The notes under the pieces: generated by a model
Told to the model about the DNA's origin: nothing
The model's database searches: none
The model's input: only the letters and a program-made list of their open reading frames with translations
Position numbers and translations under genes: made by a program
NCBI RefSeq assembly: GCF_002760655.1
Contig: NZ_PDOC01000002.1
Location: forward strand, 496,001 to 560,000
Origin: Massilia eurypsychrophila
GTDB lineage: Bacteria > Pseudomonadota > Gammaproteobacteria > Burkholderiales > Burkholderiaceae_D
Length of the DNA: 64,000 bases
Reading direction: 5' to 3'
Part shown: piece by piece, positions 38,104 through 56,484 of the stretch
How the letters are laid out: every line of letters starts with the position of its first letter
Position numbering within the stretch: the first letter of the stretch is position 1

Positions 38104-38313
38104 GAAAACCAGGGTCAGACCCGTTTGTTCTTCGGATACCGCGGCCTTTTGGCGAACAACAATGGGGTCTGACCCTGTTTTCCAAGTAACGCCGATGCCT
38201 AGAAAACAGGGTCAGACCCGTTTGTTGTTCGGCCGGGGACGACTTTCGACGAGTAACATTTTGGTCTGACCCTGGTTTTGAGGAAACGCCGGACAGAAGC
38301 TGGGGTCTAACCT
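38104..38313. repeat. Cluster of GGGTCAGACCC REP units (two inverted pairs)
   Basis: Perfect or near-perfect copies of the 11-base core lie at 38112-38122, 38165-38175 (inverse form), 38209-38219 and 38262-38272 (inverse form, one change), with a decayed copy at 38303-38313. They form two head-to-head pairs with centres about 53 bases apart, the REPIN layout. Flanks such as CCGTTTGTT-TTCGG recur. This fills most of the 38025-38441 gap, where no gene is seen. Confidence 0.85.
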
Positions 38314-53061: not shown

Positions 53062-54306
53062 TCAGGCTGCGGCCAGGATGGCGTCGGCGGCGGCGCGCAT
53101 GATGCGGTCGGCTTCGGCGATCTGCTGGTCCGACACGATCAGCGCCGGCGCCAGGCGGATCACGTCCGGGCCGGCGATCAGCAGCATCAGGCCGAGCGCT
53201 TCGGCAGCCTTGGTGTAGTCCTTGGCGCGGCCGGCGAATGCCTCGGCAACCGGCAGGCCAATCAGCAGGCCCGAGCCGCGCACCTGACCGAACAGTTGCG
53301 GATAGTCGGCCGCCAGCTTGGTCAGGTTGGCAAACAGCTTGACGCTCGCGTCCTTCACGCGCGCCAGGAAGGCCGGCGTGTTGATGGTGTCGATCACGTT
53401 CAGGGCGACCGTCGCGGCGAGCGGGTTGCCGCCGTAGGTGGTGCCATGGGTGCCGACGCCGAAGTGCTCGGCGATGGCGTTGGTGGTCAGCATGGCGCCG
53501 ATCGGGTAGCCGTTGCCGAGTGCCTTGGCCGAGGTCAGGATATCGGGCGTGACGCCGCATTCCATGTAGGCGTACAGCGCGCCGGTGCGGCCGACGCCGG
53601 ACTGCACTTCGTCAAATACCAGCAGCGCGCCGGTTGCGTCGCAGCGTTCGCGCAGCGCCTTCAGGAATGCCGGATCGCCGGGAATGACGCCGCCCTCGCC
53701 CTGGATCGGCTCGACGATCACGGCGGCGACATCGTCGGTGATGGCGGCGAGCGCGGCGGCCACGTCGTTGTACGGGATGTGGTTGATCTCTTGCGGCAGC
53801 GGCTCGAAGCCTTCGGTGTATTTTGGCTGGCCGCCGACCGACACGGTAAACAGCGTGCGGCCGTGGAACGACGACAGGCACGACACGATGCGCGATTTGT
53901 GCGGGCCGAACTTGGTGTGGGCGTACTTGCGCGCCAGCTTCAGGGCCGCTTCGTTCGCTTCGGCGCCGGAATTGCAGAAGAAGGCGCGGTCGGCGAAGGT
54001 GGCTTCGGTCAGCGCCAGCGCCAGGCGCAGGACTGGCTCGTTGGTGTAGCCATTACCGAGGTGCCACAGTGTATTGATCTGCTTGGTGAGGGCGTCGACC
54101 AGCACCGGGTGGGCATGGCCGAGGCTGGTGACGGCGATGCCGGCGGTGAAATCGAGGTAATGCTTGCCGGCCTGGTCCCACAAGTCGAGTCCGCTGGCGC
54201 GCACCGGCACCATGGCCGCTGGCGCATAGGTCGGCACCAGTACTTCGTCGAAAGTCTGGCGTGTGACGGGCCGCGTGGTGACAGCCGAATCAAGCTTTGC
54301 GTTCAT
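53062..54306 (-). CDS. astC: Succinylornithine transaminase
   Basis: AstC is a class-III PLP aminotransferase of 414 residues. It moves the delta-amino group of N-succinylornithine to 2-oxoglutarate; such enzymes often also act on acetylornithine. The PLP Lys is in LTSAKALGNGYPIG, and VEPIQGEGGVIPGD and LLVFDEVQSGVGRTG bind the cofactor. The start has AGGA five bases ahead. It is first in the ast operon. An ArgD assignment is possible, but context favours AstC. Confidence 0.92.
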   Translation of the reverse strand: MNAKLDSAVTTRPVTRQTFDEVLVPTYAPAAMVPVRASGLDLWDQAGKHYLDFTAGIAVTSLGHAHPVLVDALTKQINTLWHLGNGYTNEPVLRLALALTEATFADRAFFCNSGAEANEAALKLARKYAHTKFGPHKSRIVSCLSSFHGRTLFTVSVGGQPKYTEGFEPLPQEINHIPYNDVAAALAAITDDVAAVIVEPIQGEGGVIPGDPAFLKALRERCDATGALLVFDEVQSGVGRTGALYAYMECGVTPDILTSAKALGNGYPIGAMLTTNAIAEHFGVGTHGTTYGGNPLAATVALNVIDTINTPAFLARVKDASVKLFANLTKLAADYPQLFGQVRGSGLLIGLPVAEAFAGRAKDYTKAAEALGLMLLIAGPDVIRLAPALIVSDQQIAEADRIMRAAADAILAAA

Positions 54307-54365
54307 GGCATTCCTCATCCAATGTTAGGGGTTTGCCCGAGCTGGAACAGCTGGGCGGTTGCCCC

Positions 54366-54438: not shown

Positions 54439-54510
54439 TCCTCAAAAACAGGGTCAGACCCGGTTTCTGTGGCAATTTCCTCTAAAACAGGGTCAGACCC
54501 GTTTTTTGTT
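54439..54510. repeat. Two direct REP units downstream of the RAYT gene
   Basis: GGGTCAGACCC at 54451-54461 and 54490-54500, in the same orientation and 39 bases apart, with shared flanks (AATTTCCTC-AAAACA and CCGGTTT/CCGTTTT). They resemble the units at 38.1-38.3 kb. Confidence 0.85.
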
Positions 54511-54517
54511 CGGCTGC

Positions 54518-55204
54518 TCAGCCTTTGCGCGGCCGGCCGACCGGGTTGGGCGCTGCCAATCGCCCCATTAGCAGCGAATACGGTTGTTCTGAACCAAACG
54601 CGCCGAGCGCCGTGTTCCCCCTCGTCGCCTTGCGCACCCGGCGGAAGATTTCCGGATCGATAAGCTCATCGAACAGCGCGCGGTAGGCGGATTGCCGGGA
54701 CGCCGTGTCCTGTCCCAGGCGTCCGTAGAGCTCGTGCTGGACCACCAGTTTGCTGGACGGGCCATGGGCGTTGTGATGATAGCTGGACCATGCGTAAAGA
54801 GCAGGGGCCGCGACCAGGCCGGCGCGTACCGGGTTGAGTTCAATGTAGCGCTGGCACACCATCAAGTAGGTTTCCGAATGCACCAGGCAAGAGTGGTATC
54901 GGCCTTCCCATAGCGTGCCGGTGCGCGCGTACCGCCGGTTAACATATTGCACGTAGCGCTGGCCTAGCGACTTCATCATCAGAGCTGGGCCTAGCTCATC
55001 CTTGGGCGAGACCAGCAGGTGAACGTGATTACTCATCAGCACATAGGCATGGATTCGACACTCAGCTTGAAGGGAGGCGGCACGCAGCAGGTAGAGGTAG
55101 ACGCGGTAGTCATCGTCCTCAAAGAAACAGCGCAACCGGTTATTTCCGCGCTGGGTGATATGCAGAGGGACATCGGCAGCGACCGGACGGGGTTGACGTG
55201 GCAT
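54518..55204 (-). CDS. REP-associated tyrosine transposase (RAYT)
   Basis: A 228-residue single-domain Y1 transposase of the IS200/IS605-related RAYT type. It has ADVPLHITQRGNNRL, the HUH motif MSNHVHLLVSP, LWEGRYHSC and YIELNPVRAGLV, and the catalytic Tyr is expected in the helix after the HUH strand. RAYTs act on REP palindromes, which flank the gene on both sides here. An in-frame start 36 bases upstream is possible. The gene appears intact. Confidence 0.88.
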   Translation of the reverse strand: MPRQPRPVAADVPLHITQRGNNRLRCFFEDDDYRVYLYLLRAASLQAECRIHAYVLMSNHVHLLVSPKDELGPALMMKSLGQRYVQYVNRRYARTGTLWEGRYHSCLVHSETYLMVCQRYIELNPVRAGLVAAPALYAWSSYHHNAHGPSSKLVVQHELYGRLGQDTASRQSAYRALFDELIDPEIFRRVRKATRGNTALGAFGSEQPYSLLMGRLAAPNPVGRPRKG

Positions 55205-55330
55205 GGGAGCTCGCAGAATGGCAGAGTAAGAAGAAGTCACCCTAGACGGATCTTAAATAGCAACATTCGATCCGCATCAATCGTTCGCACGCCCACTCCA
55301 CGCGGCCTGAGCTTTAAAACAATTGAAAAC

Positions 55331-55404
55331 AATTGGGGTCAGACCCGTTTGATAATCGGCGTGCGCGTGACTTGGGCATCAATCAAACGGGTCTGACCCC
55401 AATT
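55331..55404. repeat. REPIN with perfect 23-base arms
   Basis: Arms 55331-55353 and 55382-55404 are perfect inverted repeats, each with GGGTCAGACCC (55336-55346) or its inverse (55389-55399). A 28-base spacer separates them. This lies in the 338-base gap (55205-55542) upstream of the RAYT gene, which holds no gene. Confidence 0.9.
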
Positions 55405-55466
55405 ATTTTCCAGTCCATTTGGAGCGCCTGCGTGAGGGGGATGTAACTTCCCGGCCACGTCTAAAG

Positions 55467-55539
55467 AATTGGGGTCAGACCCGTTTTATAGATGGCGTTT
55501 CGCGGATTTTCGATCGATTAAACGGGTCTGACCCCGATT
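55467..55539. repeat. Second REPIN with imperfect 23-base arms
   Basis: Arms 55467-55489 and 55517-55539 carry the core at 55472-55482 and its inverse at 55524-55534, and differ at three positions. It abuts the 3' end of the AraC-family gene (stop at 55543). Confidence 0.88.
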
Positions 55540-55542
55540 GTT

Positions 55543-56484
55543 TTAGGCGGTGAGGCGGCGCTGGCGCTCTTCGCGCGGGGTGTGGCCGAACAGGGCGCCA
55601 AACGCGGTCGAGAAGTGCGAGCCGGACGAGAATCCACACATCAGCCCGACCTGGACGATCGAGTAGTTGGTGTCGAGTAGCAGTTGGCGCGCGCGCTGCA
55701 GCCGCAACTCGAGGTAGTAGCGCGAAGGCAGGCTGCCCAGGTATTGCTTGAACAGGCGCTCGAGCTGGCGCCGCGATAGCCCGACGAGCCCGGCGATGTC
55801 GTCGGTCGACAGCGGCTCTTCGATGTTCGCTTCCATCAACGTCACCGCTTCGCTCAGCTTCGGTTGCAAGGCGCCGAAGCGCGCCTGCAACGCTACCCGC
55901 TGGCGCTCCTCGGCACCACGCACGCGGTCGATGCACAGCGCTTCCTTGATCTGCGCCTGCAGCGCCGCGCCGAACACGTGCTCGACCAGCGTCAGCGCGA
56001 AGTCGATGCTGGCCGCGCCGCCGCAACAGGTGAGCCGGGCGCCATCGAACTCGTACAGGTTGGGCGTGAAGACGGCGTGATCAGCCTTGATGTCGACGTC
56101 GGCATACAGCGCCCACGGCAAGGCGGCGCGCACGCCGTTGAGCACGCCCGCGTCGGCCAGCCACAGCACGCCGGCGCCGACGCCACCCCAGAACGGCGCC
56201 ACCCGCGCACGCTCGATCACGGTGCGCATGGCGGCAGGCTTGAGCGCCGCCTCGGACTCGTCGGCCACCAGCAGCACCAGGTGCCAGTGGCGCAAGGCGT
56301 CGGCGCCGAACTTGTCGGGGCTGCGCACATCGACGTGCAGCCGCTCGGGACCGAGCAGCTTGGCCGCCAGCCGCAGCGGCTGGTACAGGCCGGACCAGGT
56401 CAGCGCGTCGGGCTGGCCGGCATTGACCAGCAAGACGCGCAGCGGCGCTTCCTGCGCCAGGCGGGCGAGGTCAGGGTGCGCCAT
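55543..56484 (-). CDS. GlxA/ArgR-type AraC family transcription regulator
   Basis: A 313-residue regulator. The N-terminal half is a DJ-1/PfpI (GATase1-like) sensor domain (VLLVNAGQPDALTWSGLYQP, VGAGVLWLADAGVLNG). The C-terminal half is an AraC two-helix DNA-binding domain (STDDIAGLVGLSRRQLERLF, QVGLMCGFSSGSHFSTAFGA). Pseudomonas ArgR has this architecture and activates the aru genes and gdhB in response to arginine. The position beside the ast operon makes it the likely local regulator; the RAYT cassette lies between. Confidence 0.87.
   Translation of the reverse strand: MAHPDLARLAQEAPLRVLLVNAGQPDALTWSGLYQPLRLAAKLLGPERLHVDVRSPDKFGADALRHWHLVLLVADESEAALKPAAMRTVIERARVAPFWGGVGAGVLWLADAGVLNGVRAALPWALYADVDIKADHAVFTPNLYEFDGARLTCCGGAASIDFALTLVEHVFGAALQAQIKEALCIDRVRGAEERQRVALQARFGALQPKLSEAVTLMEANIEEPLSTDDIAGLVGLSRRQLERLFKQYLGSLPSRYYLELRLQRARQLLLDTNYSIVQVGLMCGFSSGSHFSTAFGALFGHTPREERQRRLTA

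Follow-up and report, generated by a model that had tools for sequence, protein, structure and literature searches.

The 64-kb stretch of DNA analysed here (henceforth the window) carries a resident, single-copy gene for a Y1 HUH transposase of the TIR-associated type that very probably acts in trans on hairpin repeats scattered through the genome, the same repeats that also flank its own gene. This RAYT/TIRYT-type gene occupies 54518..55204 on the minus strand and encodes 228 residues from an ATG at 55204 to the stop at 54518. The reading frame remains open upstream to a GTG at 55240 (240 residues), but the ATG is the likely start because the corresponding residue, M13 of the 240-residue frame, is invariant in 16 aligned relatives. 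The longer span of 54439-55545 given in the initial annotation is that of the gene plus its repeats, the gene alone being 54518-55204. To its left lie two repeat units on the plus strand with exact cores, at 54445..54466 (core 54451-54461) and 54484..54508 (core 54490-54500), which share the same orientation with their cores 39 bp apart. To its right lie two REPIN-like inverted pairs, assigned to neither strand and again with exact cores, at 55331..55404 (cores 55336/55389) and 55467..55539 (cores 55472/55524). The core positions thus confirm the arrangement described in the initial annotation, two direct units on one side and two inverted pairs on the other, and its claim of one hairpin with perfect 23-base arms also holds (55331-55353 and 55382-55404), while the longest perfect arm of the second pair is 16 bases, or about 20 with one G-T wobble. 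Near 38 kb the window holds one further inverted pair of the same family with exact cores, between two long convergent ORFs (38112..38175), and a second pair (38209..38272) with one exact core and another, at 38262, that has one mismatch; this makes ten cores in the window, nine of them exact GGGTCWGACCC, as originally counted. The transposase gene is bordered on the left by a class-III aminotransferase gene (called astC here; 53062..54318, minus strand; Pfam Aminotran_3, 405.6 bits) and on the right by a gene for an AraC-family regulator (called araC here; 55543..56484, minus strand; Pfam HTH_18, 86 bits, and HTH_AraC, 55.4 bits). Repeats end close to two stop codons: the left unit at 54484..54508 lies about 10 nt beyond that of the transposase gene, with its end at 54508, and the pair at 55467..55539 ends about 3 nt beyond that of araC, at 55539.

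The protein matches Pfam Y1_Tnp with 52.9 bits (cut-off 23) and NCBIfam REP_Tyr_transpos (NF047646) with 67.7 bits, below the equivalog cut-off of 80; the genome's other Y1 proteins score 25.3-79.9 bits on the latter model and likewise stay below 80. It retains the HUH motif (H72-x-H74) and Tyr132, in keeping with the earlier description of the transposase as intact. H72 and H74 are invariant and Y132 is nearly invariant in an alignment of 16 of 26 relatives, from which L040 and L042, whose matched stretch contains a stop, and eight others were left out. An AlphaFold2 model (pLDDT 83.3, with residues 215-240 mostly low) returned E. coli TnpAREP (4er8) as the first hit of a structure search (E 2.3e-8), the TM-score of the predicted model being 0.77 by target length and 0.54 by query length. 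Searching solved structures with the single protein gave nothing at E 0.001, whereas a profile search did find a match. In the profile alignment with 4er8, W94 is kept and Q95, E100, H101, and R104 are replaced by E, S, C, and H, respectively; these five are the GTAG-contact residues according to PMC6006769. The domain search found no match to a C-terminal HTH in the window protein.

The repeats form a large and specific family. The exact core, found nine times in the window, was absent from 100 dinucleotide shuffles, and the whole genome (5.95 Mb in 119 contigs) holds 225 exact cores compared with 1 occurrence of the reversed pattern. As single strands, the inverted pairs fold far better than shuffled sequence, with z -8.35 for 55336/55389 and z -8.22 for 55472/55524. 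Folding was seen for the direct pair as well (z -4.29), the core being near-palindromic in itself; the 'direct' and 'inverted' units therefore differ less than the initial annotation implied, and its arrangement stands while the sharp contrast between the two does not. We derived the anatomy of the family from 100 of the genome's 225 core places, which group into 47 clusters; 20 of these clusters consist of a single core. The 100 places include 20 inverted pairs at 52-53 bp spacing and seven double pairs of the same spacing with 70-85 bp between pairs, along with seven pairs arranged tail to tail at a distance of 18-25 bp and some direct arrays. The family thus shows the defining layout of REPINs: repeats paired in inverted orientation across a short, variable spacer, and many such copies scattered through the genome. 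The core is bordered by A-rich sequence on one side and, for the most part, by GTTT on the other. Of 100 unique copies, 3 have a GT[AG]G tag no more than 8 nt from the core, versus 2 of 100 control positions, and none has the complement C[TC]AC there, versus 5 at control. The sequence GGGGTCAG is present in 57 of the 100 copies, including both pairs at 55331-55539, and fits the TIR motif GGGGWSAS; the two left units read AGGGTCAG and fall outside that motif.

Since the repeats lack a GTAG tag and four of the five GTAG-contact residues are replaced, the system fits the TIR-associated class (TIRYT) better than the classical REPs, and the label of REP units in the initial annotation needs changing to that extent. 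As in the TIRYT/TIRtron systems described by Di Nocera et al. 2013 (PMC3733652), a RAYT-like gene is flanked by GTAG-less repeats, the repeats carry the motif GGGGWSAS (here GGGGTCAG, and GGGGACAG in relatives), and repeat dimers and clusters occur elsewhere in the genome. Unlike the families there, which are moderately abundant, the repeat numbers 225 cores in this genome and 621 in one from a different genus. In PMC6006769, the HTH-bearing subclass 2.1 accounts for 20 of the 26 TIRYTs described; the window protein differs from it in having no HTH match. The system also resembles the REPIN-RAYT system (PMC8049555) in its inverted pairs, its single-copy gene, and its greater number of repeats where the gene is present, but differs in that the window repeats have no GTAG tag and possess a near-palindromic core with almost no loop. 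With E. coli TnpAREP (4er8) the protein shares the HUH-Y1 fold, the conserved NPV region, and Trp94, and it departs from it in a longer C-terminal part and the four contact residues. Among the papers returned by our literature searches, none linked the core GGGTCWGACCC to repeats.

Repeat number follows the presence of the gene. In the genus of the window, the four genomes with the gene hold 83-225 cores and the fifth holds 1; the three orthologs are 65-69% identical, and the best match in the fifth genome is 38% or less. The same pattern emerged in another genus, for which 40 genomes were compared and a close gene was defined as a match to a query from G050 at E 2.7e-68 or better and 54% or more identity, the best E among the 19 gene-less genomes being 1.6e-44. 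Genomes with a close gene contain 28-184 cores (n=21, median 84) and those without it 0-38 (n=19; Mann-Whitney p=2.3e-7), so there are fewer cores without the gene; this comparison had been proposed in the initial annotation, and its outcome is the predicted one. On a tree of 39 of these genomes (built from one locus, with several weak forks, and leaving out G345, whose match is another Y1 protein), gene presence changes 10 times. The gene-less sister has the lower number in all six sister pairs (35/116, 25/147, 35/95, 29/62, 25/80, and 7/32 cores; two-sided sign test p=0.03), and independent contrasts of gene against cores give r=0.74 (p=8e-8). Relatives without the gene thus have far fewer copies, which argues that the transposase gene probably makes or maintains the scattered hairpin repeats. 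A stop codon interrupts the matched stretch in five of the 21 close genes, and four of those five genomes (G304, G229, G333, and G324) hold 62-184 cores; such stops are therefore not predictive of low numbers. Of the three gene-bearing genomes with the fewest cores, G261 (28 cores) has a stop inside the gene and G211 (29) has another flank repeat, whereas G008 (32) has a low number without such an explanation. A family-wide test of gene presence at E 1e-45 was set aside because many matches of about 41-45% identity seem, judging by eight sampled loci, to represent a different conserved paralogue. The highest number among 392 genomes of the family, 621 exact cores, is found in G143 (genus g40, L300), whose transposase gene has two exact cores on each side.

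Of the 21 gene-bearing genomes in the 40-genome genus, 19 have a core with at most one mismatch next to the gene; the flanking core is exact in 10 of the 21 and lies mostly on one side. The background is 0.015 such cores per shuffled 500-bp flank. Of 20 further transposase loci, 15 are flanked by a core with no more than one mismatch; four of the other five carry another repeat type and one carries none. We then counted flank repeats in a panel of 20 genomes, chosen with the flanks known so as to include several flank types. GGGGACAGACCAC has 73, 86, and 262 copies in the three genomes so flanked and 0-1 in the 17 others; GGGACGTAACNC has 100 and 119 copies in the two genomes so flanked and 0-1 in the 18 others, its reversed pattern reaching up to 5 copies in the panel; and GGGGTCAGACTCC has 57 copies in one of the two genomes so flanked and 0-5 in the 18 others. 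Thus, six of the seven panel genomes with a non-window flank repeat, representing all three non-window types counted, are rich in their own flank repeat, with populations of tens to hundreds; these genome-wide counts leave out type E and the other-type genomes G198, G095, and G288. Together with the domain, the fold, and the covariation of gene and repeats, this flank specificity supports the earlier identification of a Y1 transposase with its own REPIN-like hairpin population. Several genomes run against the main reading. The gene of G346 is flanked by GGGGTCAGACTCC, and the genome has 3 copies only, two of which are the flanks themselves; G294 has 82 GGGTCAGACCC cores, yet its gene is flanked by another repeat; and in four of eight core-rich g40 genomes (G323 with 74 cores, G313 with 29, G365 with 41, and G318 with 34) no core within one mismatch lies beside the Y1 loci examined, which comprise the sole Y1 match of G318 and all but one or two matches in each of G323, G313, and G365. 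The five further loci lacking the core, the inexact flanking core in about half of the 21 gene-bearing genomes, the four core-rich genomes whose gene contains a stop, and the up to 38 cores retained by gene-less genomes weigh in the same direction.

Related transposases also tend to share a flank type. A transposase tree was built from 70 rows (G211's gene appears twice, and G198 and G170 contribute two genes each), of which 69 carry one of five flank motifs, 26 of them with one mismatch; these one-mismatch flanks were pooled with exact ones and account for 24 of 51 window-type rows and 2 of 7 of type E. Flank type changes 9 times on this tree, compared with 18.6 times after shuffling, and none of 200 shuffles was as low. 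The five flank types accompany proteins about 44-69% identical to that of the window, all within one bacterial family. We give an even chance to the reading that several changes of target hairpin have occurred in the lineage, with new targets founding repeat populations and gene loss leading to decay. In G003 the gene's flanks (L117, 1436-1490 and 2323-2344) read GGGACAGACCC, one base off GGGTCAGACCC, and the genome holds 83 cores of GGGTCAGACCC; this flank may mark the beginning of a change of target.

The covariation of gene and repeats could also arise from the opposite direction of cause, if repeat-rich genomes gained the gene more readily by recombination between repeats. Such an order of events would suit the site between the aminotransferase and AraC-type genes in G124, which has three cores and no transposase gene, and in G378, where repeat remnants are seen by eye; repeats can therefore land there without the gene. 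It would also suit the existence of core-rich genomes without a matching gene. We consider it unlikely, since other repeat families likewise show agreement between the gene-flanking repeat and the one spread through the genome, and since the cores of gene-less genomes, which number up to 38, look like remnants. Less probable still is that the repeats are hairpins of an ordinary sort, retained because they serve the cell, for instance in transcription termination, with the transposase there by chance. Their folding is strong, and because they end about 3 and about 10 bases past the araC-type and transposase stop codons they could serve as transcript ends; however, repeat numbers track the gene in one genus under phylogenetic control, and the abundant repeat is the gene-flanking repeat in several repeat families.

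The history of the site bears on whether the gene itself moves. Leaving aside any insert between them, the aminotransferase and AraC-type genes are neighbours in 10 of 10 genomes examined. The transposase gene lies between these neighbours in four of five genus members (G000, G001, G003, and G004) and is missing from the same site in the fifth, G002 (150-bp gap), and, across four other genera, in G124, G378, G294, G211, and G143; the gene must therefore have entered the site at some time. In both two-gene trees G002 branches inside the gene-bearing group, with weak support (56 and 0.34-0.53), so the gene may have been lost in G002, the alternative on these sequences being a gain after G002 branched off. 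The statement that such a system persists without moving is thus too strong: the gene has stayed in place in four genomes, yet it once entered a site that is gene-less elsewhere. The notion that the gene and its outer repeats form an autonomous, self-moving IS200/IS605-like element draws on the gene-less neighbour site in G002 and other genera and on long near-perfect inverted repeats bracketing the gene in several relatives (60 nt at 97% in L139 and 61 nt at 98% in L135), but it is improbable and was rejected for this genome, as there is one copy only, located at the same place in all four gene-bearing genus members, and the remaining four Y1 proteins are only distantly related (33-38%) and have no core nearby. 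The catalytic fold is shared with the IS200/IS605 TnpA proteins of IS608 and ISDra2; unlike in those systems, whose mobile copies contain their own gene, no multi-copy element was found, and the repeats are separate units in the hundreds.

The genome's other four Y1 genes belong to different settings: no exact core lies within 1.5 kb of any of them, three have other flanking repeats, and one is without inverted repeats. Three Y1 genes (G000:C7:58105, L032; C1:91580, L033; C28:27232, L034) show weak HTH matches, all below the Pfam cut-off, which likens them to subclass 2.1 of PMC6006769. GGxGTCAGGTCTGACATTCGGACATT-like repeats flank two of these genes, and three GTGTCCGATTGTCGGCACTGACCCC-like copies flank the third; they are other repeat systems in the same genome. 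A second conserved Y1 paralogue is found at G000:C1:171653-172318 (L124, 1477-2184), with homologues in L120-L123, L251-L289, and L292-L298. It adjoins glutamate synthase- and response regulator-like genes (by eye), and no inverted repeats were found around it. The HUH motif of this paralogue is NHxH or DHxH in seven of eight loci from other genomes, the eighth giving no reading. Throughout the 40-genome genus, in 39 genomes (the 40th match is another protein), the motif has lost its first His and reads mostly PDQLHLL, and in the window genome both His residues are gone (PDQWQLL). Judged by these motifs, the paralogue looks like a transposase turned non-catalytic host protein.

How might the window transposase act on its repeats? 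We propose that the protein would bind the folded repeat on single-stranded DNA, probably on the lagging-strand template, and nick beside the repeat via Tyr132, with a metal held by the HUH histidines. The hairpin pair might then, on rare occasions, be copied or moved to a new site, and the repeat population would persist with the gene present and shrink after gene loss.

Within the literature consulted for comparison, RAYT work has dealt mostly with GTAG-type REPs, and the finding of more REPINs in RAYT-bearing genomes is published for E. coli (PMC8049555). In PMC3733652, the GTAG-less, TIR-flanked kind was judged possibly less productive, and no obvious correlation of tyrosine transposase genes with REP or TIR families was reported. 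Here, the GTAG-less kind is accompanied by 28-184 cores per genome in one genus and by as many as 621 in another, with lower numbers where the gene is missing. New in our data are a correlation of gene and repeats for a TIR-type system with phylogenetic control, the agreement of flank repeat and abundant repeat in the 20-genome panel, and apparent repeated switches of target repeat. The relatives with different target repeats already supply protein-hairpin combinations on which binding and cutting could be assayed, and the sister species that lack the gene offer a natural experiment on how such repeats are kept alive. If the lineage did change targets in the way proposed, the series of switches would offer a way to read the code by which an HUH protein recognises its hairpin, and the lifetime of an abandoned repeat population would become measurable.
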